From Flammeovirgaceae bacterium (lineage in GTDB: Bacteria; Bacteroidota; Bacteroidia; Cytophagales; Cyclobacteriaceae): DNA of 64,000 bases. This document shows positions 3,047-51,541 of this stretch, piece by piece; the stretch's first letter is position 1; every line of letters starts with the position of its first letter. The position numbers and the translations under genes were made by a program. Where the stretch lies: the NCBI GenBank assembly GCA_021298015.1, contig JAJTGY010000008.1, forward strand, positions 1 through 64,000. Reading direction: 5' to 3'. Below the pieces are notes generated by a model that did not search any database, was not told where the DNA came from, and saw nothing but the letters and a program-made list of their open reading frames with translations.

Positions 3047-3816
3047 CGTTCGAGTAGCCCACCGAGCAGTGAACTGGATTCTTTACGACTGTTGCTTCCG
3101 TAGGGTGCCAATGCCTGAACCAATTTGCGAATCGGCATGGACTGTAGCCAAACCTTGCCGCTTCCCCGCAGCGTGGCCAGAAAGATTCCCTCCCCACCAA
3201 AGACCATGGAGCGCAGACTGCCCGTAGTTTCCACATTAAAGTCGATGTGCGATTCAAAGGCCACCACGCACCCGGTGTCAACGCGGAGTGTTTCGTTGTT
3301 CAACGTTCTTTCAATCAGCGTACCACCGGCATGCACAAATGCTTGCCCATCACCTTGAAGTTTCTGCAGAATGAAACCTTCACCACCTACTAATCCAGCG
3401 CCAATTCGTTTATTGAATACAATGCTCAGTTTTGTGCCAAAAGCGGCACATAGAAACCCGTCTTTTTGAACGATCAACTCTTGGCCGCGCATGGTAGCCA
3501 GGTCCACGGGAATGACCGTGCCGGGATACGGAGCTGAGAATCCCACCTTCGCCTTTCGGTTGCCGCGGTTCGTAAAGTGCGTCATAAACAAGGATTCACC
3601 GGTGAGTACGCGGCTTCCGGCCGAGAGCAATTTATCGAACAGGCTTTGATTGGTGTTGGATCCGTCACCCATCTTCGTCTCGAACTGAATCCCTTCTTCC
3701 ATAAACAACATGGCCCCCGCCTCCGCGATCACGGTTTCCATTGGGTCCAGTTCGACTTCTACAATCTGAATGCTTTCGCCTTTAATTTGGTAGTCAATGA
3801 CGTGCGAGTTCATCAA
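3043..3816 (-). CDS. AIM24 / TIGR00266 family protein
   Basis: A 257-residue protein of the AIM24-like (TIGR00266) family, a beta-rich, tryptophan-RNA-binding-attenuator-like fold found across bacteria and in yeast mitochondria. Its molecular role is not established. Family features visible are the N-terminal [21 protein letters not shown], the central [22 protein letters not shown] and the later [22 protein letters not shown], i.e. the repeated G-x-G-x-hydrophobic turns of the fold. There is no signal peptide. It is the last gene of the run gltX - 79-residue protein - this gene, starting directly after the upstream stop. Confidence 0.9.
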
Positions 3817-4056
3817 TCATCGGGTTTTCTTCCTTTTACGGGTTTTCCCTTGCTTGAGTTCGGAATAATCTTCGCGTTCCTCCAACTTCTTATCCTCCAC
3901 GTTGCGATTCAGGAATTCGTTGATTTTTTCGATTTCCAGGTTGGATGAGATTTCACCAAACGAATTTACACGCATCTCAAATCCATCCAGTTCGCGGTGA
4001 ACACGAGGTTTTGCTTTTTTCTTGCCGGGCTTTTGTTGGCTGGGCATATCAGGCAA
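3817..4056 (-). CDS. Small basic protein of unknown function
   Basis: A 79-residue, lysine/arginine-rich protein. Both ends are strongly basic (KPGKKKAKPR and KQGKTRKRKKTR), and a central segment FEMRVNSFGEISSNLEIEKINEFLNRNVEDKKL looks like the folded core. Small proteins of this layout are common next to gltX in Bacteroidota, but I know of no assigned function. Binding to nucleic acid or the ribosome is a guess from charge only. The start overlaps the end of gltX by 8 bp and the gene is followed at once by the AIM24-like gene, so the three are co-transcribed. Confidence 0.7.
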   Translation of the reverse strand: MPDMPSQQKPGKKKAKPRVHRELDGFEMRVNSFGEISSNLEIEKINEFLNRNVEDKKLEEREDYSELKQGKTRKRKKTR

Positions 4057-5581
4057 TCGGTTTTATGGTGTGTAAGGCTGTAGCGAGTCGGTGGGCCACT
4101 TCTTTAGGCCCGAGTATCTCCAGGGTTACCATTAAATCGGGCCCTGAGGCTCCGCCCGTGATAGCTGTGCGCAAGGGCTGCAGTATTTGCCCGGTTTTCG
4201 CTTGAAGACGGGCGCACACCTCGTCCAGTTTTTGTTTGGCGTCCGTATGCGTGAGCGTAGTGAGCGGTTCAATTTCCTGACGATAGGCATCCAACACGGC
4301 CGCAACCGTGGACGTCCACTTTTTTGCGACCACCTGCGGATCGTATTCCGTGGGTGGGTAAAAGAAAAATTTGCCTTGTTCCCAGAAATCGGCCGGGAAC
4401 GTTACACGCTCGCGCAACACCTTGGCAATTGCTACGGCTTTGTCCTGTGGGCAGTTGATTTGATGAGCTTTCAGGGAGGAGAGGAGATAACCGGCCAGCA
4501 CATCATCGGGTTGGGCGCGCAGGTAATGCTGATTGAACCATTGCGCTTTTTGGATATCAAAGCGGGCTCCGGCCTTGTTGATGCGATTGAGGGAGAACAC
4601 CTGAACCAATTCCTCTTTGGAAAACAATTCCTGCTCGGTTCCCGGGTTCCACCCCAGCAACGCCAGGAAATTAATGACGGCCTCGGGCAGGTAGCCCCAT
4701 TCGCGATAGCCACGACTGATTTCACCTGATTTGGGATCCTTCCAGTTGAGCGGAAAGATGGGGAAGCCAAGTTGATCGGCATCCCGCTTACTGAGTTTGC
4801 CGTGTCCATCCGGTTTCAGCAACAGCGGCAAGTGCGCAAACTGCGGCATCTCGTTTTGCCAGCCCAGCAGGCGGTACAAGGTAACGTGCAAGGGTGCCGA
4901 AGGCAACCATTCTTCGCCCCGGATCACGTGCGAAATCTTCATCAGGTAATCGTCCACCACGTTGGCCAGGTGGTACGTAGGCATGCCATCGGATTTCATC
5001 AACACCTTATCATCGACCTGTGCGTTTTGGAACACAACTTCCCCGCGGATCAGGTCATTCAACTTAACTTCACCTTCGGCTGGCATCTTCAAACGGATAA
5101 CGTAAGGTGTATTTTCCCGCAACAGACGATTGACCTCTTCGGGTGCAAGCGCCAACGAGTTGCGCATACTCATGCGCGTTTGGCTACCGTATTGCTGATT
5201 GGCTGCGCCAGTTGATTTTAATCGCTCCCGCATGGCGTCAAGTTCCGCCTCCGTATCGAAAGCGTAGTAGGCGTGGCCGGCTTCAATCAATTGCTGCGCA
5301 TATCGGCCATACAACTCTTTTCGCTCTGACTGTCGGTAGGGCGCGTGGGGCCCACCCACGCCCACACCCTCATCAATTTCAATACCGGCCCATCGGAGGG
5401 AATCCAGGATATACTGTTCGGCACCCGGCACGAAGCGCTCCTGATCCGTATCCTCGATACGCAGAATCATCGTGCCGCCTGTTTGCCGGGCGAGCAAATA
5501 ATTGTAGAGGGCGGTGCGCACGCCACCAATGTGTAGCGCCCCGGTAGGGCTTGGCGCAAAACGAACACGAACGGGTTTCAT
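4049..5581 (-). CDS. gltX: Glutamyl-tRNA synthetase
   Basis: A 510-residue class I aminoacyl-tRNA synthetase that charges tRNA-Glu with glutamate in the cytosol. The HIGH-type signature is PSPTGALHIGG (residues 10-20) and the KMSKS-type loop is KLSKR (262-266). The RIEDTDQER motif (41-49) and the connective-polypeptide region are present, followed by the helical anticodon-binding domain. Length and order agree with bacterial GluRS. It heads the minus-strand run gltX, small basic protein, AIM24-like protein, and may also be read from the upstream ridA pair 36 bp away. Confidence 0.97.
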   Translation of the reverse strand: MKPVRVRFAPSPTGALHIGGVRTALYNYLLARQTGGTMILRIEDTDQERFVPGAEQYILDSLRWAGIEIDEGVGVGGPHAPYRQSERKELYGRYAQQLIEAGHAYYAFDTEAELDAMRERLKSTGAANQQYGSQTRMSMRNSLALAPEEVNRLLRENTPYVIRLKMPAEGEVKLNDLIRGEVVFQNAQVDDKVLMKSDGMPTYHLANVVDDYLMKISHVIRGEEWLPSAPLHVTLYRLLGWQNEMPQFAHLPLLLKPDGHGKLSKRDADQLGFPIFPLNWKDPKSGEISRGYREWGYLPEAVINFLALLGWNPGTEQELFSKEELVQVFSLNRINKAGARFDIQKAQWFNQHYLRAQPDDVLAGYLLSSLKAHQINCPQDKAVAIAKVLRERVTFPADFWEQGKFFFYPPTEYDPQVVAKKWTSTVAAVLDAYRQEIEPLTTLTHTDAKQKLDEVCARLQAKTGQILQPLRTAITGGASGPDLMVTLEILGPKEVAHRLATALHTIKPIA

Positions 5582-5597
5582 CTAACAAATAGCGGCT

Positions 5598-5605
5598 GAA
5601 AGGTA
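5598..5605 (-). promoter_or_regulatory. Probable -7 box for gltX
   Basis: On the minus strand TACCTTTC matches TAnnTTTG at seven of eight positions and would give a leader of roughly 12 nt before the gltX ATG at 5581. It lies in the 36-bp gap after the membrane-protein gene. No -33 element was recognised. Confidence 0.35.
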
Positions 5606-5617
5606 GGGATTTTGGCC

Positions 5618-6079
5618 TTAGTGTTCCTGCAGCACGCGGAGTATATGCGTTTCAAGATCTTGCCGGTGCAATCGGAAATTGAGCCACGCTACAAGACCCA
5701 CAACCAGGGTGGTTCCGGCAATGGCTCCGGCCGCTGCCGGTTGCCCGGCCTGGTAAATAACTGTGGCGGTCAGGACAGCCACAAAGGCTCCTGCGATCAA
5801 TAACCACCGGGTGATCGGCAGCAGGTGGTATTGCAAAACCAAGATGCAGCCCCGGGAGGGAGATTCCAGCCGCCCGTGAGCAACCGGTTGAAAGGGATTA
5901 ATTCGGGTGGCATACCGCATGATCTGAAACCGATCGTTTTGCACCCATCCGGTGAATATGATTTTTCCATTTATGCCTGCCTCACGCGGCACCGTAACCG
6001 GCCTCAGGCTATTGACCACGTCTTCCGCTGCCATCGCGATGACAAACGTTTTGCGGGATTGAGGCCAGGTGATCATCAC
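5618..6079 (-). CDS. Membrane protein of unknown function
   Basis: A 153-residue protein I do not recognise. The first 85 residues are soluble and beta-rich (SLRPVTVPREAGINGKIIFTGWVQNDRFQIMRYATRINPFQPVAHGRLE), and two transmembrane helices follow at about 90-112 and 117-137 (WLLIAGAFVAVLTATVIYQ and AGAIAGTTLVVGLVAWL), ending in a short charged tail. Its start overlaps the ridA stop in an ATGA arrangement, so the two are translationally coupled. The N-terminal stretch may be an effector domain held at the membrane, but nothing in the sequence names a ligand. Confidence 0.6.
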   Translation of the reverse strand: MMITWPQSRKTFVIAMAAEDVVNSLRPVTVPREAGINGKIIFTGWVQNDRFQIMRYATRINPFQPVAHGRLESPSRGCILVLQYHLLPITRWLLIAGAFVAVLTATVIYQAGQPAAAGAIAGTTLVVGLVAWLNFRLHRQDLETHILRVLQEH

Positions 6080-42327: not shown

Positions 42328-43617
42328 CTAGGCTGCTGCTATTTTCAAAACAGCCTCAATAAACCGATCCAGATCGCGGGTGGTGGTGTAGATGTGGGGT
42401 GTTACCCGCACGGCATTTACATTTTCCCACTTGATGGATACGGTGTGAATCTGATACTCACTAAAGAGCTTGGAGGCCACATCGCCCACATCCATACCCT
42501 CAATACAAAATGTGCCCAGCGCACACGAATACTCGGGCTTCAACGAGATATGCAGCTTCACCCGCGGATTTTTACTCACTGCTTCGCACCAGTATTTTTT
42601 CAGGTAATGCAGTCGTTCTTGTTTGCGTCTGGCTCCGATGGCGAGATGGAAATCAACGGCCTGCCCAATGGCCTGCTCGGGTGCAAAGGAACGGGTGCCC
42701 AGTGCCTCGAACTTGCGTATGTCCCCACTTTGGGGTTTGTCGGTGGGAAACAGGGGCCAGGTTTTGCTGATGTGCTCCGGCCTAATGTGCATTAACCCCG
42801 TACCAAACGGAGCGCACAGCCATTTGTGCAAACTGGTGCCGAAGTAGTCGGAGTTGAGGTCCGGAATTTTGAAATCCAAATGGGCAAAGGAGTGGGCCGC
42901 ATCCACTATACTGATGATCCCCCGTCTGCGGGCTTCTGCACAAAGTTTGGCCGCGGGTAGAATCTGGCCCGTCCAGGTAATGAGATGTGTAATATGCCAG
43001 ATTTTGGTGCGGGGCGTGGTTGCCGCCACATACGCTTTTACGATAGCGTCATCATCTTCAATCGGCAGCGCCAGGTTAATCCAGTTGATTTTCACTCCGT
43101 GGCGAAGCTCGCGCTGCTTCCACGCATGGATCATGTTCGGATAATCCTGCCGGGTCATGACGATCTCATCGCCTTTGGCCAGATCAATACCTCAGGTGAA
43201 CGTGCCGAGTGCCTCGGTTGTGTTGCGGTTGATCGCCAGTTCGTCAGGGCTTACACCAGCCAAATGCCCCAGTTTTCTGCGCAAGGGTTCGCGGCCCTTG
43301 TCCAGAATCTGCCACATGTAGTAGGTGGGTCCTTCATTGCTCAGGTGATAGTAACGATCAACAGCCTCTTGCACCACTCTTGGCTGCGGGCTCACCCCGC
43401 CATTGTTTAAGTTCAGGATATTGGTGGTAACCGTGAAAGACTGAGCCATGCGCGCCCAAAGATCTTCTTCCTCAGCCGCGGCTTCAGGGGTCAATTGGTT
43501 TAGGGCCAGCAACGCATCGGACACATCTTCGGCCAGCGCTGCGGAGGAAATGCCCGTGAGCGAGGCAGCGCCCGCCAGGGTGGCCGATTTTCGAAAAAAT
43601 GATCTGCGCGAAACCAT
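42328..43617 (-). pseudogene. Tat-exported class V aminotransferase-fold protein interrupted by an in-frame TGA
   Basis: A PLP-dependent, class V aminotransferase/cysteine-desulfurase-fold protein read as 429 codons. The N-terminus is a twin-arginine signal (SRRSFFRKSATLAGAASLTG), so the folded enzyme would be exported. The reading is broken by TGA at codon 142 (43192-43194), between TEALGTFT and GIDLAKGDEI; both sides are in the same frame and match the family without loss. The PLP lysine is in SLHKWL (about codon 265) and the cofactor aspartate in IVDAAH. It is a recent pseudogene, a sequencing error or a read-through site; the downstream part keeps good codon use. Confidence 0.78.
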
Positions 43618-43692
43618 AGGTGACGGATTTAGCTCACCCAATGTACTCAAAAGGAAATTTGCGGTGTTTGTTTTTTGTGACGACCGTTGGCG

Positions 43693-44781: not shown

Positions 44782-45648
44782 TTAATGAGCCGGTTTCTTG
44801 CCAAACGCCCATTTTAGAAAATGAGGCATGGCTTCCGCCCAGGTTTTGTGGTTGTGTTCTCCGCCCTCAATTTCCAGATATTGAATGTCGCGGAACGGCC
44901 GGTAGCCGCGTTTGGTCAACTCAGCAATAAGATCAAGTGTGTCATCAATCGAGTCAATGATTCCGTTGTGGTTGCGATCACCGGGTTCATCGCGCGTACC
45001 CGTTTGGAACCAAAATTTCATGTCCGGTTTGAACTTGCCTTTTCGAATAGCCAGGTGCATAATCCGATCGCGATCATCGGCATAGAAGCGGCTGTGGGCA
45101 TCGCGCTTGCGCCACCAAAGAGAGCCGCTGAATACCCCTACTTTCCCAAACATCTCCGGATGTTCCCACGCCATATCCAGGGCCGAAAGCCCGCCCATGG
45201 AGTATCCGGCAACGGCCCGCAGCGAAGGGGAAGGATCAATCGGGTAGCGATAGACCAGGTAAGGTATGAGCTCGCTGGTTACAAATTTGGCGTACGCTTT
45301 TGCTTTTCGGCCACGCCCGCGGTAATCGGCCCGGCTGCTTACCCCATACTCTTGTATCCGGTCTCCGGCCACTATGCCCGCGACAATCACCGGCTCAATG
45401 GCCTGCTCGGCCTCCAGTCGGTCCAGCGTCTCAATTAAACGAACTGCGGTGTTATCCTGCCCGTCATTTAAAATCAGTAGTGGATATTTGCGACCGGGCT
45501 CAAATTGAATGGGACGAACCACTTCCACCTCCACAATGCGATCCAGCAGTTTAGTGTGCGTATCGCGGTAAAAGTCCGATTGGTAAAAAGAGGGGTGATT
45601 TTCCGTCTTCTCGCCTGGCTCGGGATTGGTAAATTCTACAGTTTCCAA
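44782..45648 (-). CDS. Alpha/beta hydrolase-fold esterase (esterase D-like)
   Basis: A 288-residue serine hydrolase of the putative-esterase (antigen 85 / esterase D) type, with the nucleophile in GYSMGGLSAL, the acid near the GTRDEPGDRNHNG region and the histidine in GGEHNHKTW. The start codon is TTG. No signal peptide is visible. The loop DRNHNGIIDSIDDT resembles an EF-hand calcium loop (D-x-N-x-N-G-x-x-D). It is divergent from the next esterase gene, separated by 37 bp in which the two would share a control region. Substrate is unknown. Confidence 0.82.
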   Translation of the reverse strand: METVEFTNPEPGEKTENHPSFYQSDFYRDTHTKLLDRIVEVEVVRPIQFEPGRKYPLLILNDGQDNTAVRLIETLDRLEAEQAIEPVIVAGIVAGDRIQEYGVSSRADYRGRGRKAKAYAKFVTSELIPYLVYRYPIDPSPSLRAVAGYSMGGLSALDMAWEHPEMFGKVGVFSGSLWWRKRDAHSRFYADDRDRIMHLAIRKGKFKPDMKFWFQTGTRDEPGDRNHNGIIDSIDDTLDLIAELTKRGYRPFRDIQYLEIEGGEHNHKTWAEAMPHFLKWAFGKKPAH

Positions 45649-45685
45649 GTACTTTTAGACTTGTAAAAATAGACAAAGCTGAGTT

Positions 45686-46393
45686 ATGTACGAGCATCAT
45701 CACCGTTGGTATTCGCCACGTTTGGGCCGGGATATTGACGTATTGGCATTTGGCACGCGGGGCTACCCGGTCATTCTTTTTCCCACTTCTATGGGTCGCT
45801 ACTATGAGAACAAGGACTTCAAGTTGCTCGATAGTGTAGCCTGGTTTGTCGATAATGGGCTGGTTAAAATTTATTGCCCGGATGGAGTAGACGAGGCCAG
45901 CTGGTATAACCGGAATATCCACCCGGCTGACCGGGTGCGCAATCACATCTGGTATGACCAAATGATTCGTCATGAGCTCGTGCCGCTGGCCCAACGCGAA
46001 ACCGGGGTTGGCCGTGTGGCCACAGCCGGTTGCAGCTTTGGCGGCTATCACGCCAGTAACTTCGGCTTTCGGCACCCCGAAGTAGTGAAGTATGTTTTTA
46101 ATATGGGCGCTGCATTTGACATTCGCGATCAGGTTGATGGTCACTACAACGATGACATCTATTTCAACAACCCACCCGACTTTTTGCCGAGTGCGGACAA
46201 TCCGCATTTTTATGACATGTTCGTTGTGTTGGGTACCGGCACGCATGATATGTGCTGGGATGCCAACGAAAAAATGGCGACCATTCTCCGTAACAAGGGG
46301 ATTCCCCATTGGCTGGATGTTCGACAAAATGCTCCGCACGATTGGCCAGCCTGGCGGGAGATGTTTCCTCACTACCTTTCGCTGATCAAGTAA
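45686..46393 (+). CDS. Esterase family protein (alpha/beta hydrolase fold)
   Basis: A 235-residue alpha/beta hydrolase-like protein starting MYEHHHRWYSPRLGRDIDVLAFG. The elbow GCSFGGYHASN holds the nucleophile serine, with GTGTHDMCWD and NAPHDWPAW supplying the acid and histidine. This form, without signal peptide, is often found beside ATP-grasp/GCS2 amidoligase clusters in Bacteroidota as far as I recall. A near-consensus -7 box (TAGACTTG, 45656-45663) lies upstream. The next hydrolase starts one base after its stop. Confidence 0.82.
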   Translation: MYEHHHRWYSPRLGRDIDVLAFGTRGYPVILFPTSMGRYYENKDFKLLDSVAWFVDNGLVKIYCPDGVDEASWYNRNIHPADRVRNHIWYDQMIRHELVPLAQRETGVGRVATAGCSFGGYHASNFGFRHPEVVKYVFNMGAAFDIRDQVDGHYNDDIYFNNPPDFLPSADNPHFYDMFVVLGTGTHDMCWDANEKMATILRNKGIPHWLDVRQNAPHDWPAWREMFPHYLSLIK

Positions 46394-46394
46394 G

Positions 46395-47333
46395 TTGATC
46401 ACCCGGTCATTCAGCTTCGTTTTTGCCCTGCTGGCATGCCCGACTGCACTTGCCTTTTCTTCGGTACAGATCTCCGAAGCGGTAGTCATAGGGGGAATTC
46501 AGCAATACATCGAGGTGCGCGGGCCCGCTGAACAAAGCCCCATCCTGCTTTTATTGCATGGCGGCCCCGGCAATTCGGTCACCAAACGAGCAGCCTCGTT
46601 TACATCCGAACTTCAAAAACATTTTCTGGTGGTGTTGTGGGACCAGCGCAATAGTGGCAAGACGCGTGAGTTGAATACCTCTCCGCAGGCCGACCTAGGA
46701 ACCTTCGAATCGGATGCAGCCGAAATGATTCAGTATTTGCTGACGCGATTCGGGCAGACCAAGTTGTTTCTGTTTGGCCATTCGTGGGGAGGGTTTCTGG
46801 CTTTGCGGGTGGCGAAGCAACAACCCGATCGGGTAATGGCCTGCCTGGCGGTGAGCCCGATGATTTTCCAGCAAGAAAGCGAGCGATTGTCTCTGGAGTG
46901 GATGCTCCAGCGGGCAAGGGAAACCAACGATTCACGAGCGCAAACCGATCTGGAAAAGGTAAAAATACCCTTTGAAAATGGAGATCAGTTGTATTGGCAT
47001 CGCTACTGGCTGGCCAGGTTCTCTGGAAACCGGCCCCCCGACAGGAGTTTTGTTCAACGTTGGGCCATTGATTGGCTGGACGTGCTGAATGAGGCTTCGC
47101 GCGTCAATTTATTAGCTGATTCGGCCCATTGGCCCGTGCCGCTGTTTCTTTTTGTTGGTGGACGCGATTTTCAGACTCATTTCAGTCTTGCTCAGAAATA
47201 TGTTACCCATGTAAAAGCCGGAAAAAAGGACTTATTTTGGTTTCCGAATTCGGGGCATAACCTGTTGTTTACTGATTCGCACGAGGTGCAGCAGCAGGTT
47301 ATCTCAATTCTGAACGATTACAAAAGTCAGTAA
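46395..47333 (+). CDS. Exported alpha/beta hydrolase, prolyl aminopeptidase-like
   Basis: A 312-residue alpha/beta hydrolase with an N-terminal signal-peptide-like segment (SFSFVFALLACPTALAFS), so it should act in the periplasm. The oxyanion-hole motif is HGGPG, the nucleophile elbow GHSWGGF, the acid in VGGRDFQTH and the histidine in SGHNLL, a pattern seen in S33 proline iminopeptidases. Substrate could be a peptide or another small amide or ester. It begins with TTG just after the previous stop and ends 26 bp before the ATP-grasp gene, so the two hydrolases and the amidoligase genes are probably one unit. Confidence 0.82.
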   Translation: MITRSFSFVFALLACPTALAFSSVQISEAVVIGGIQQYIEVRGPAEQSPILLLLHGGPGNSVTKRAASFTSELQKHFLVVLWDQRNSGKTRELNTSPQADLGTFESDAAEMIQYLLTRFGQTKLFLFGHSWGGFLALRVAKQQPDRVMACLAVSPMIFQQESERLSLEWMLQRARETNDSRAQTDLEKVKIPFENGDQLYWHRYWLARFSGNRPPDRSFVQRWAIDWLDVLNEASRVNLLADSAHWPVPLFLFVGGRDFQTHFSLAQKYVTHVKAGKKDLFWFPNSGHNLLFTDSHEVQQQVISILNDYKSQ

Positions 47334-47359: not shown

Positions 47360-48325
47360 ATGAAAAAGATTGGAGTCCTTCATGGCATGGAACGTTCGTT
47401 TCCGATGGCCTTTGTCGATCGCGTAAACCGGATGGGATTGAAGAATGTTAAAGCCGAGCATCTTGAGATTGACAAGGTGCAGCAAGGCGAGCCTTGCGGC
47501 TTCGATGTGATCATCGACCGGATTTCCCAGGATGTGCCGTTTTATCGCGCTGTTTTGAAAAATGCGGCCAGCACCGGAACAGCCGTTATCAACAATCCTT
47601 TTTGGTGGAGCGCAGATGAGAAATTCTTTAACAACGCACTGGCGGTGAAAATCGGAGTGCCCGTGCCCAAGACGGTGCTCTTGCCTTCACACGACAAACC
47701 GACCGATACACAGGACTCTTCGTTCAGCAATCTGAGGTTCCCGCTAAGTTGGGATCAAATCTTCAGTCATATCGGCTTCCCCGCCTATATGAAGCCGCAC
47801 GCTGGCGGTGGTTGGAAGAGCGTATACAAACTGCGTGACCCGGCCGACTTCTTTGAGAAATTCAAAGAGACCGGACAGTTGGTGATGATGCTTCAGGAAG
47901 AAATTGTCTTTCAGGAATATTTCCGCTGCTACTGCCTGGGGCGCAAGTATGTGCGTATTATGGAGTACGAACCACGCAATCCGCATCACCTGCGCTATGT
48001 GGTTAACCGCGGGCCCGCCTCAGAGAAGTTGCTGAAGACGGTACACGACTATGTCTTGAAATTAAACGAGGCGTTGGGGTACGATTTCAACACGGTGGAG
48101 TTTGCCGTGCGCGATGGCGTGCCGTATGCCATCGATTTTTGCAATCCGGCACCAGATGCTGACGTGAACTCGGTGGGACAGGAAAATTTCGAGTGGGTAG
48201 TGGAGCACGCGGCCCGCATGGCAGTGGAGCGTGCCGAAGCACACCAGCCCGGTAAGGACAATCTCACCTGGGGCACGTACGTAGCTGATGGTGTGGCCAA
48301 TTTTCTGAAATCAAATAAGAAGTAA
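47360..48325 (+). CDS. ATP-grasp amidoligase of the RimK/glutathione-synthetase-like type
   Basis: A 321-residue ATP-grasp enzyme expected to join an amine to a carboxylate through an acyl phosphate. The N-terminal alpha/beta domain (to about residue 95) is followed by the ATP-grasp fold: FPAYMKPHAGGGWKSVYKL holds the ATP-binding lysine and glycine loop; MMLQEEIVFQEYFRCYCLG lies at the adenine hinge; and YDFNTVEFAVRDG...PYAIDFCNPAPDADVN contains the metal-binding Glu and Asp/Asn. First gene of a run with a GCS2 ligase, a glutamine amidotransferase and a second ATP-grasp-like protein. Confidence 0.85.
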   Translation: MKKIGVLHGMERSFPMAFVDRVNRMGLKNVKAEHLEIDKVQQGEPCGFDVIIDRISQDVPFYRAVLKNAASTGTAVINNPFWWSADEKFFNNALAVKIGVPVPKTVLLPSHDKPTDTQDSSFSNLRFPLSWDQIFSHIGFPAYMKPHAGGGWKSVYKLRDPADFFEKFKETGQLVMMLQEEIVFQEYFRCYCLGRKYVRIMEYEPRNPHHLRYVVNRGPASEKLLKTVHDYVLKLNEALGYDFNTVEFAVRDGVPYAIDFCNPAPDADVNSVGQENFEWVVEHAARMAVERAEAHQPGKDNLTWGTYVADGVANFLKSNKK

Positions 48326-48357
48326 TTACCTGGTTTAAAACGGGCGCAGCCCTGAGT

Positions 48358-49458
48358 ATGGAAAAATTTACCCTCGGAGTGGAGGAGGAATACATGGTGA
48401 TCGATCCGCATACGCGCGAGTTAAAGTCGCATGACCAGCGGATAGTGGAGATCGCGGCCGGCAGCCCCTTGAAAGATGCTGTGAAGGCGGAGATGCATCA
48501 GGCGGTAGTGGAGGTGGGCACCGGTGTTTGCGAAAATATTCAACAGGCTTACGATGAGATTAAATTTCTGCGCAAGTCGGTGTCCGACATCGCCAGAAGT
48601 CTTGACTTGCGCATAGGGGCCAGCGGCACGCACCCGTTTTCGCATTGGTCGCAGCAGCTGATTACGCCTAACCCCCGCTACGATGCCATTGTTAACGAAA
48701 TGCAGGAGGCTGCGCGCTCTAATCTGATCTTCGGCCTGCATGTGCACGTAGGCATTAAGGATAAGAACCTGGCCATCCACATCATGAACACCGTGCGGTA
48801 CTTTTTACCCCACGTGTACGCGCTATCGTGTAACTCACCCTTTTGGGAGGGGCGTAACACCGGCTTCAAGTCGTTTCGTACCAAGGTGTTCGACAAATTT
48901 CCGCGCACCGGGTTGCCGGATTACTTCAGCGACTGGGATGATTTTAAAAACTACGTCAACCTCCTGATTAAGACCGGATGTATCGACAACGCAAAGAAAA
49001 TCTGGTGGGATGTGCGGGTGCATCCGTTCTTTGATACGATTGAGTTCAGAATTTGTGACGTGCCCATGCGTGTGGAAGAGTCCATTGCTATTGCTGCGTT
49101 GTTCCAGGCCCTTGTAGCCAAGTTGTACAAGCTGCGGCAGCAGAACATGAGTTTCATCCTTTACAATCGCGCATTGATCAATGAGAACAAATGGCGCGCG
49201 TCACGCTACGGTATTGATGGTAAGCTTATAGATTTTGGTAAGCAATCCGAAGTGGATGCCCGCTCACTGGTGTTGGAATTGTTAGATTTTGTTGATGACG
49301 TTGTCGATGGGTTAGGCAGTCGGCCAGCGATTCAATATGTACACGAGATTTTGAAGGTTGGCACCGGGGCCAACCGGCAGTTAGCCGTGTACAAAGAGAC
49401 TGGTAAACTGGAGCGTGTGGTGGATTACATCACCGAGCAAACGATAGCGGGCACCTGA
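48358..49458 (+). CDS. Carboxylate-amine ligase (glutamate-cysteine ligase type 2, YbdK-like)
   Basis: A 366-residue member of the GCS2 family, whose E. coli member YbdK has weak glutamate-cysteine ligase activity. The ATP/metal-binding opening is FTLGVEEEYMVIDPHTREL; the fold continues with RIGASGTHPFSHW, NLIFGLHVHVGI and FRICDVPMRVEESIAIAALFQALVAKLY. Length equals the family norm. It lies 32 bp after the ATP-grasp gene. The neighbouring genes suggest a product other than glutathione. Confidence 0.92.
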   Translation: MEKFTLGVEEEYMVIDPHTRELKSHDQRIVEIAAGSPLKDAVKAEMHQAVVEVGTGVCENIQQAYDEIKFLRKSVSDIARSLDLRIGASGTHPFSHWSQQLITPNPRYDAIVNEMQEAARSNLIFGLHVHVGIKDKNLAIHIMNTVRYFLPHVYALSCNSPFWEGRNTGFKSFRTKVFDKFPRTGLPDYFSDWDDFKNYVNLLIKTGCIDNAKKIWWDVRVHPFFDTIEFRICDVPMRVEESIAIAALFQALVAKLYKLRQQNMSFILYNRALINENKWRASRYGIDGKLIDFGKQSEVDARSLVLELLDFVDDVVDGLGSRPAIQYVHEILKVGTGANRQLAVYKETGKLERVVDYITEQTIAGT

Positions 49459-49468
49459 CTTTAGTCAG
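49455..49468. repeat. 6-bp palindrome at the expected -33 position of the amidotransferase promoter
   Basis: CTGACT (49455-49460), TT, AGTCAG (49463-49468), a perfect inverted repeat that includes the stop codon of the ligase gene. Its right arm ends 21 bp upstream of the -7 box at 49490, where the -33 element is expected, so a regulator binding there could control the next two genes. Confidence 0.5.
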
Positions 49469-49489
49469 GAGTTGCATGTTCAAATTTGG

Positions 49490-49497
49490 TACTTTTG
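49490..49497 (+). promoter_or_regulatory. -7 box for the amidotransferase gene
   Basis: TACTTTTG matches TAnnTTTG exactly; transcription would start near 49503, about 9 nt before GTG 49512. This would give the last two genes of the cluster their own promoter. Confidence 0.55.
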
Positions 49498-49511
49498 TCT
49501 GAAGTTTTGTT

Positions 49512-50351
49512 GTGAGTCAGTCGTCAAACATACGAATTGCCGTACTGGATATGTACGAGGGTATGCCCAATGAAGGCATGCGGGGTATTCGCCAGCTGAT
49601 TGAGGAGTTTGAGGCTGATTGTCACATGCCGGTTAAGTATGATGTATTCGATGTGCGGCTGAAATGCGAAGTGCCCGGAGCCGACTACGATATTTATATC
49701 AGCAGCGGGGGCCCGGGCAGCCCGCTTGAAAGTGAGGGATCATTGTGGGAGCGGAAATTTTTTTCGCTCATGGATGAAATCCAGGTATTTAATCGTTCCA
49801 CCAAGGGTCCGCGAAAGCATGTACTGCTGATTTGTCATTCGTTCCAGGTGTATTGCCGTTATTATGGGTACGGGGTGGTGAGCAAGCGCAAGAGCACCTC
49901 GTTTGGTGTGATGCCGGTACACCATACTTTTGAAGGAATGCACGAGCCCTTGTTTCGAAGTCTGGGCGACCCTTTTTATGTTGTCGATTCCAGGGATTAT
50001 CAGATCACACAACCGAACCAGGAAAGAATCCGGGAGCGCGGGGGCTCAGTATTGTGCCTGGAAAAATTCCGGCCGCATGTCGACCTGGAGCGAGCCGTGA
50101 TGTCCATCCGGTTTGATGACGCGTTTATCGGGATGCAGTTTCACCCCGAAGCGGATGCCCCCGGTATGCGCATGTACCTGTTGCGCGAAGACAAGAAGGA
50201 AATTGTGATTGAAAAGCACGGTGAGAAAAAATATTGGGACATGCTGGACCACCTCAACGACCCGGACAAAATTATGGCCACCTACCATGCCGTGGTACCT
50301 CGGTTTCTCATGCAGGGTTTAAAAACTAACCTGGTTGCCGCCCTCTCATGA
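49512..50351 (+). CDS. Class I glutamine amidotransferase
   Basis: A 279-residue GATase1 that releases ammonia from glutamine. The nucleophile is Cys108 in LICHSFQVYC (the usual second glycine of GxCxG is replaced), and the His-Glu pair is His211 and Glu213 in MQFHPEAD. The opening ISSGGPGSP is the oxyanion side. It starts at GTG 49512 and ends in a 4-bp overlap with the last gene of the cluster. No synthetase domain is fused, so the ammonia is probably passed to one of the neighbouring ligases. Confidence 0.88.
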   Translation: MSQSSNIRIAVLDMYEGMPNEGMRGIRQLIEEFEADCHMPVKYDVFDVRLKCEVPGADYDIYISSGGPGSPLESEGSLWERKFFSLMDEIQVFNRSTKGPRKHVLLICHSFQVYCRYYGYGVVSKRKSTSFGVMPVHHTFEGMHEPLFRSLGDPFYVVDSRDYQITQPNQERIRERGGSVLCLEKFRPHVDLERAVMSIRFDDAFIGMQFHPEADAPGMRMYLLREDKKEIVIEKHGEKKYWDMLDHLNDPDKIMATYHAVVPRFLMQGLKTNLVAALS

Positions 50352-51541
50352 TTGCTGCTGCACGCGCCCGCTTCAACCGGTCCTTCTCCGAGGAGAAATA
50401 TCAGCGGTTTCTTGATGATTTGAACACGAGCTACGGTCAGAAAGTTACATTTCGTGTAGCCGAGACACCGGTATTCGTTTCGCGCCATCTGCGTGAAAAA
50501 CTGATGAAGGCCTCCAACGACATCATCGATGTGATCATTCGCGATGATTACCCGAAGTTGGTGGAGAAGGCAATACCCAGCCACCTGGTCGTTCCCCGCG
50601 AAACACCTCACACCCTTTTTCTGGCGCTCGACTATGCCGTGGTGCTGGGCTCAGATGGGTCATTGGAACCTCAGCTTATCGAAATGCAGGGCTTTCCCTC
50701 GTTGTTCGGTTGGCAGGATTTTGTTGCACTGAAGTACCGCGAGCATTTCGATGTGCCCGCGCAGTTCTTCAATCATTTCAATCTCACGGAAGCCGGCTAT
50801 CGCCAACGCTTTACACAGGCTGTGCTCAACGGCCACGCACCGGAAAATGTAGTGTTGCTGGAGATTGAGCCGATGAAACAGAACACGGCTATTGATTTTA
50901 CCATTACGCAGCACATGACAGGCATTGCGCCCGTGCACATTGGTGATGTGGAGCGCGAGGGTCGGCAGTTGTTTTACCGCCAGGCCGGCAAGCGCATTCC
51001 GATTCACCGGATTTATAATCGGGTGATCTTTGATGAATTGGTTAAGCGCAACGACTTAAAACTACAGTTTAACCTGACGGAAGATGTGGATGTGGAATGG
51101 GCCGGTCACCCGAATTGGTTCTTCCGCATCAGCAAATACACGATGCCGTTTATTCAAAGTCCATTTGTGCCAGAGTGTCGCTTCCTCCATCAATACACCT
51201 CATTCCCGGAAGATCTCGAGCATTATGTGCTGAAGCCGCTGTTTTCGTTTTCGGGCACAGGTGTGATTTTTCACGTAACCCAGGCGGACATTGAGGCTAT
51301 TCCCGCAGAACATCGGCATGAGTACCTGCTGCAGCGGAAAGTGAAATACGAACCGGTGGTGCAAGCACCTGATGGTCAGGTGAAGGTGGAGATTCGGATG
51401 TTGTTTTTGTGGGAAGAGGGTAAGCCCAGACCCGAACCGGTCACCAACCTGGCCCGCCTCAGCCGCGGTGATATGATTGGGGTGAAATACAACAAAGACA
51501 AAACCTGGGTTGGCGGATCGGTTTGCTTTTTTGAGCCGTAG
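50348..51541 (+). CDS. ATP-grasp-like protein (probable circularly permuted/glutathionylspermidine-synthase-like ligase)
   Basis: A 397-residue soluble protein that I do not recognise by name. The second half has features of an ATP-grasp ligase: HYVLKPLFSFSGTGVIF (lysine plus small-residue loop), a hydrophobic hinge EYLLQRKVKYEPVV and a metal-site-like QVKVEIRMLFLWEEG, ending in GVKYNKDKTWVGGSVCFFE. The first half contains LIEMQGFPSLFGWQDF and LEIEPMKQNTAIDF. The order suggests a permuted ATP-grasp as in glutathionylspermidine synthase relatives, but this is inference. Its start overlaps the amidotransferase stop, so the two act together. Confidence 0.65.
   Translation: MIAAARARFNRSFSEEKYQRFLDDLNTSYGQKVTFRVAETPVFVSRHLREKLMKASNDIIDVIIRDDYPKLVEKAIPSHLVVPRETPHTLFLALDYAVVLGSDGSLEPQLIEMQGFPSLFGWQDFVALKYREHFDVPAQFFNHFNLTEAGYRQRFTQAVLNGHAPENVVLLEIEPMKQNTAIDFTITQHMTGIAPVHIGDVEREGRQLFYRQAGKRIPIHRIYNRVIFDELVKRNDLKLQFNLTEDVDVEWAGHPNWFFRISKYTMPFIQSPFVPECRFLHQYTSFPEDLEHYVLKPLFSFSGTGVIFHVTQADIEAIPAEHRHEYLLQRKVKYEPVVQAPDGQVKVEIRMLFLWEEGKPRPEPVTNLARLSRGDMIGVKYNKDKTWVGGSVCFFEP

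Follow-up and report, generated by a model that had tools for sequence, protein, structure and literature searches.

An amidoligase gene row recurring across Bacteroidota includes a protein with a predicted glutathione synthetase-type fold

Introduction

What is made by a row of tightly packed ligase genes that has neither a named product nor a neighbour that would give one away? The question is raised by the first 64,000 nucleotides of contig JAJTGY010000008.1 from a Flammeovirgaceae bacterium (assembly GCA_021298015.1, forward strand), referred to here as the window. A sequence-only reading of this stretch had described a four-gene amidoligase cluster composed of two ATP-grasp-like ligases, a GCS2-type carboxylate-amine ligase and a class I glutamine amidotransferase. 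We found the four open reading frames (ORFs) intact at positions 47,360 to 51,541 and as closely spaced as had been claimed, with gaps of 32 nt between the RimK-like gene and GCS2 and 53 nt between GCS2 and GAT, and a 4-nt overlap of GAT with P397:

47360..48325, plus strand: RimK-like ATP-grasp ligase, 321 aa
48358..49458, plus strand: GCS2, YbdK-type carboxylate-amine ligase, 366 aa
49512..50351, plus strand: GAT, standalone class I glutamine amidotransferase-like protein with a Cys-His-Glu triad, 279 aa, GTG start
50348..51541, plus strand: P397, ligase with a predicted glutathione synthetase/glutathionylspermidine synthetase fold, 397 aa

We consider it probable that these genes encode a cytosolic, ribosome-independent peptide or amide pathway that resembles glutathione or glutathionylspermidine synthesis while acting on another compound. 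The enzyme classes are already known, and so is the concept of neighbourhoods of this kind; Iyer et al. reportedly described amidoligase gene neighbourhoods with the same classes in 2009. What appears to be new is a predicted fold for the unnamed member, P397, within a widespread pathway. No published description of the gene set was found in the literature searched, with most subscription papers lying outside its coverage.

Results and Discussion

P397 itself passes no Pfam or NCBIfam cut-off. The window protein gave no match at E ≤ 1 to the glutathionylspermidine synthase family PF03738, which places it outside this sequence family, and 11 of 50 homologues match it weakly (best E 0.0083). The predicted model, with a mean predicted local distance difference test score (pLDDT) of 94.1, was matched by Foldseek to yeast glutathione synthetase (1m0w; E 7.3e-15, template modelling score 0.62), a putative glutathionylspermidine synthase (3n6x; E 2.3e-13) and human glutathione synthetase (E 4.5e-12). 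A second structure aligner ranked YgiC (Z 25.0 over 343 residues at 3.6 Å), glutathionylspermidine synthetase (Z 23.8) and human glutathione synthetase (Z 23.6) in the same range, at identities to these fold relatives of 9–15 %. Judged by its model, P397 has the glutathione synthetase/glutathionylspermidine synthetase fold over the whole chain, and the structure prediction that the earlier reading had proposed as a check bears out its label “ATP-grasp-like”.

Residues D95, E112, Q114, K263, K296, E348 and R370 of P397 are invariant in 50 of 50 aligned rows, as are K145, E180, E247, D259 and N262 of the RimK-like ligase in 25 of 25. The ATP-grasp lysine and metal residues had been called intact, and conservation across both families agrees with this. 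When the PDB sequences were searched with a P397 profile, YgiC came out as the best match at E 0.16, not significant alone, and within this match K263 and K296 align to YgiC lysines. The Mg ligands of yeast glutathione synthetase are Asp130 and Glu146 (PMC2845819), and D95 and E112 of P397 likely match them, their spacing being 17 versus 16 in a comparison of motifs, not a superposition. According to the same source, the cysteine carbonyl is contacted by an Arg (Arg125 in human, Arg128 in yeast) which stands two residues before the Mg-binding Asp. The corresponding position 93 of P397 is occupied by A (38 rows), Q (6), G (2), S (2) or V (2) and never by Arg, which by motif does not fit a true glutathione synthetase. 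As a side observation, a P397 homologue (49 %) lies at 3396-4613 of locus L091, on a contig whose label reads candidate division KSB1, which would reflect a transfer or a binning error.

The scan with P397 returned at least 588 relatives, from which the best 80 loci were kept, hence near relatives dominate. Gene order was counted in 66 of them, leaving out 13 loci where the DNA to the left of P397 is shorter than 5 kb, and also L072, where ORF picking had missed P397. The four genes proved coherent, while the description as a four-gene cluster fell short: the set comprises at least five to six genes, since two esterase genes had been overlooked, of which EstE was hidden beneath a longer spurious minus-strand ORF (45551-46489). 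The additional features are as follows:

44782..45648, minus strand: EstD, PF00756 serine esterase that looks cytosolic, divergent from the gene row, TTG start uncertain
45686..46393, plus strand: EstE, conserved PF00756 serine esterase, first gene of the row
46395..47333, plus strand: ABH, alpha/beta hydrolase (PF00561, 85.4 bits), a passenger not conserved with the set and present in 11 of the 80 loci

The order EstE-RimK-GCS2-GAT-P397 is complete in 42 of the 66 loci, three further loci lacking only GCS2 and two only EstE. P397 is accompanied by RimK and GAT in two loci, by GCS2 and GAT in one and by GAT alone in four. Gaps are short in most loci (medians 36–38 nt), and the overlap of GAT with P397 measures exactly 4 nt in 32 of 61. 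This recurring order, which the sequence-only reading had asked to be sought in other Bacteroidota, together with the exact overlap, argues that the cluster is more than chance. Across 40 complete loci the pairwise distances of the five proteins correlate at 0.90–0.95, as common descent predicts. All five genes are found, for example, in Flavobacterium aquatile LMG 4008 (L098) and Algoriphagus pacificus YJ13C (L110).

The row can be broken between GCS2 and GAT: L032, L033 and L037 carry GAT-P397 without RimK and GCS2, and genome G205 has RimK and GCS2 on contig C6 and GAT-P397 on C2. In G001, P397 lies on C6 and RimK with GCS2 on C10; the pairing of GAT and P397 is itself not strict, the two being apart in G089 and G181. 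In Flavobacterium loci the opposite strand beyond P397 holds a third ATP-grasp protein (F19, which the window genome lacks), an M17 aminopeptidase and EstD. The proposed gene content was thus right in being a conserved, coherent amidoligase set and incomplete in that other lineages add F19, the M17 aminopeptidase and a ligase-like ORF. Separately, a 121-aa ORF (F66) is placed between GAT and P397 in L098 (9590-9955) and L106 (9597-9962), and in G115 (L122: 6747-9231) an ORF resembling histidine ammonia-lyase by eye follows the RimK-like gene.

The ligase-like ORF belongs to genomes that have RimK and GAT and no P397 match, 11 in number, of which five were inspected. Four of these (L111-L114) carry an ORF of 451–507 aa between RimK and GAT; in the fifth (L115), ORF picking showed no such ORF between the two genes. 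One of three scanned ORFs passes the 32-bit cut-off of the circularly permuted ATP-grasp family CP_ATPgrasp_2 with 37.3 bits, the others scoring 20.9 and 23.7. The intervening protein of L111 matches 3n6x by sequence (E 9.9e-10), and hhalign of P397 against the intervening ORF of L113 gave nothing solid (probability 0.9 %, E 0.062), so that kinship between P397 and these ORFs rests on 3n6x as a shared relative, reached by fold for P397 and by sequence for L111. Downstream of GAT, L111 has EstD-like and F19 ORFs and L114 an EstD-like ORF.

Joint presence and absence was assessed in 218 Bacteroidota genomes for which at least 95 % completeness had been requested. The matches kept as strong were 66 of 66 for P397, 69 of 69 for GCS2, 78 of 79 for RimK, 53 of 54 for GAT, 45 of 53 for F19 and 85 of 94 for EstE, where those under 95 bits were dropped and the count includes remote esterases. 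These strong matches (P397 66, RimK 78, GAT 53, GCS2 69, F19 45, EstE 85 per 218 genomes) mean that roughly one in three Bacteroidota genomes of the sample keeps P397 and the RimK-like gene. Both occur together in 64 genomes and neither in 138, with P397 alone in 2 and RimK alone in 14; P397, RimK, GAT, GCS2 and EstE are jointly present in 37, and F19 appears exclusively alongside RimK (45 of 45). The window's genus was represented by 36 genomes: P397 and RimK are both present in 26 and both missing from nine (seven of these at least 92 % complete), the remaining one (79 % complete) holding a RimK fragment only, so that the two ligases agree in presence or absence in 35 of 36. Of 22 other genomes of the order, six have both and 16 neither. 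Strong GCS2 matches were obtained in 26 of the 36 genus genomes and 4 of the 22 others, weak matches in G028 and G051 being excluded. Linkage of this kind, in a pathway whose product has no name, hints at a metabolite that has been overlooked.

Several observations weigh against the pathway proposed here. Of the 78 RimK genomes, 15 lack GCS2 and 26 lack GAT, so neither step is universal, and in 12 of the 66 loci P397 stands without EstE, RimK, GCS2 and GAT. The p values for co-occurrence in the phylum take no account of phylogeny, and the nine genomes of the genus without either ligase may form one clade that reflects one loss. The cysteine-carbonyl Arg of glutathione synthetase is absent at the P397 motif position in all 50 rows, again by motifs and not by superposition. 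Since GCS2 and GAT are often missing from RimK genomes, the steadiest parts of the set are the RimK-like ligase, P397 (64 of 78 RimK genomes) and the EstE-type esterase (75 of 78).

GCS2 is assigned by curated cut-off: it scores 538 bits against PRK13515 (cut-off 371) and is classed by sequence as a YbdK-type carboxylate-amine ligase, with 227.4 bits against PF04107 and E 1.5e-50 against the ybdK structure. It stays below every glutamate-cysteine ligase cut-off (TIGR02048, 70.1 of 249.05 bits; TIGR01436, 29.8 of 463.15; TIGR03444, 11.8 of 370.8). We rejected glutathione synthesis on these scores, and glutathione is an unlikely product. The RimK-like protein reaches 39.6 bits against TIGR00768, under the cut-off of 143.4, and is RimK-like without belonging to the RimK family.

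A carboxylate-amine ligase beside a putative hydrolase also allows for a gamma-glutamylation route by which an amine is used or detoxified: GCS2 would add glutamate, and GAT, as a gamma-glutamyl hydrolase of the kind known from PuuD and plant gamma-glutamyl peptidase 1 (GGP1), would remove it after processing. By sequence GAT is a class I glutamine amidotransferase: it scores 36.8 bits against PF00117 (cut-off 22.8), and its triad C108, H211 and E213, previously reported as intact, is the same in all 34 aligned rows. Its predicted model (pLDDT 92.8) scores almost equally against TM1158 (Z 22.9), MetA (22.0), DnfC (21.8) and Arabidopsis GGP1 (21.6; Foldseek E 1.4e-12), followed by the gamma-glutamyl hydrolase 1l9x (Z 19.4), while identity to the first four is 13–18 %. 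Those four scores span 1.3 Z, too narrow a spread for the fold to tell ammonia donors from peptidases. GGP1 removes gamma-Glu from glutathione conjugates (PMC6243137). Given the similar scores for GGP1, DnfC and TM1158 and the lack of a GAT match in 24 of 66 P397 genomes, GAT may be a gamma-glutamyl peptidase and not an ammonia donor; the earlier class assignment stands by family and triad. The resemblance to GGP1 and 1l9x and the nature of GCS2 speak for the amine route. It nevertheless seems unlikely to us, as it leaves P397 and the RimK-like ligase unexplained, GAT is missing from 27 of 69 GCS2 genomes, and the inspected locus maps show no oxidase, dehydrogenase or transporter beside the set.

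The esterases bring a further alternative into view. EstD scores 112 bits and EstE 27.6 bits against PF00756 (cut-off 22), and S117, D188, D211 and H218 of EstE are invariant in 25 of 25 rows. An EstD-related ORF is present in 42 of the 80 loci, adjoining EstE in those close to the window and, in Flavobacterium, lying beyond P397. EstD has a weak match to S-formylglutathione hydrolase (24.3 bits, cut-off 281.7), which, along with a glutathione-like inventory of GCS2, a glutathione synthetase fold, a GGP-like GAT and the M17 aminopeptidase of Flavobacterium, would suit a low-molecular-weight thiol distinct from both glutathione and bacillithiol, served by ligases, peptidases and S-acyl hydrolases. 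Set against this, the bacillithiol synthase gene bshC (TIGR03998), recorded for G000 as well as across the phylum sample, has matches in 216 of 218 genomes, above the cut-off in 212, whether the set is present or absent, and P397 lacks the cysteine-carbonyl Arg; the control search gave matches in 3 of 14 known genomes. The small-thiol option raised by the earlier reading is weakened accordingly, and we regard it as improbable. We also rejected the main cellular thiol as the product, which is unlikely because of bshC in 216 genomes. Directly upstream of EstE, six loci (L097 at 5224-5619, L089, L099, L101, L106 and L107) carry an ORF of about 130 aa (F27), whose L097 copy passes no Pfam cut-off.

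Modification of proteins or ribosomal peptides, be it by tagging, in graspetide fashion or after the manner of RimK, was likewise weighed. RimK acts in this manner. Ligases of the glutathione synthetase fold can modify peptides at the C-terminus or on side chains (PMC10979984). The RimK-like protein, in turn, stays under the RimK cut-off, and the gaps of 32, 53 and −4 nt in the window, like those of most loci, are too short to house a precursor gene. With no adjacent carrier or precursor gene, peptide tagging and a ribosomal product lose ground, and we give this explanation little credence, a distant target or precursor being conceivable; a graspetide with its precursor inside the row was rejected for the same want of room. 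A known anti-phage defence system was also rejected, PADLOC returning no family at E ≤ 0.01 for six proteins.

We return to the glutathione- or glutathionylspermidine-like pathway, for which the best reading of the product class is a gamma-glutamyl-type peptide or amide, with hydrolysis built into its metabolism. In the order that we infer, GCS2 would link glutamate, through its gamma-carboxylate, to an amine or an amino acid, and the RimK-like ATP-grasp ligase would add a further residue. Ligases of the P397-type fold phosphorylate a C-terminal carboxylate that is then attacked by an amine (PMC10979984). P397 would in this way phosphorylate the free carboxylate and couple it to an amine-bearing acceptor. 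GAT could then process an amide, of gamma-glutamyl or of glutamine, via a Cys thioester, so that ammonia is set free or the gamma-glutamyl residue is trimmed, and EstE and EstD might strip an ester or thioester group off an intermediate or conjugate. The pathway seems to be cytosolic, since inspection by eye brought up neither a signal peptide nor a transporter among the ORFs of the row; as had been noted before, no transporter or product-fixing neighbour was seen beside the set. More tentatively, and with somewhat less than even confidence, we propose a hitherto undescribed small-molecule gamma-glutamyl-type peptide capped at its carboxylate as an intracellular core metabolite in about a third of Bacteroidota, equipped with its own ligases, peptidase and esterases and existing beside bacillithiol. 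If this is true, such a metabolite would be a conjugating agent, an osmolyte or a storage compound. The predicted fold of P397 and the named five-gene strains make the product directly testable.

As to the surroundings, the ends of P397 and the convergent prmC are 1 nt apart, and the flanking ORFs look like housekeeping genes (ATP synthase subunits, prmC, ribD; mostly named by eye); a mobile element was rejected on this basis. Relatives of the RimK-like ligase were not found in the plasmid collection. Promoter and terminator predictions do not exceed chance, with three sigma-70 promoters against 6.1 in shuffles, eight terminators against 7.7, and one match to the Bacteroidota promoter pattern against 0.83 expected. 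The sequence TACTTTTG at 49490-49497, 14 nt upstream of the GAT start, is a possible Bacteroidota −7 element by consensus, and it would fit GAT-P397 as a separate transcription unit. On the minus strand at 42328-43650, an aminotransferase-like gene (by eye) is split by a single in-frame stop, as a pseudogene or through an assembly error, and begins with what we take to be a twin-arginine-like start.

Comparison with known systems

With the eukaryotic-type glutathione synthetases, glutathionylspermidine synthetase and YgiC-YjfC, P397 shares the predicted fold over its whole length and the acids D95 and E112 near the yeast spacing. It differs from these ligases in having no Arg two residues before D95, in an invariant E-x-Q-G motif and in its neighbours, namely the RimK-like ligase, GCS2, GAT and the esterases. 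The fungal E-64 ligase Cp1B offers a precedent for a glutathione synthetase fold that makes a small-molecule amide, and the P397 model aligns to it with Z 22.1 (9cjn); Cp1B differs in belonging to a fungal pathway that starts from epoxysuccinate, for which the passages of PMC12568646 consulted here mention no GCS2 or GATase partner. GAT has the same predicted fold and the same Cys-His-Glu triad as the standalone class I amidotransferases TM1158, DnfC and GGP1, and also MetA, and is set apart from them by an identity of 13–18 % and by P397 as its partner in the row. GCS2, finally, is a member of the YbdK-type ligases and differs from them in its co-inheritance here with two ATP-grasp ligases.

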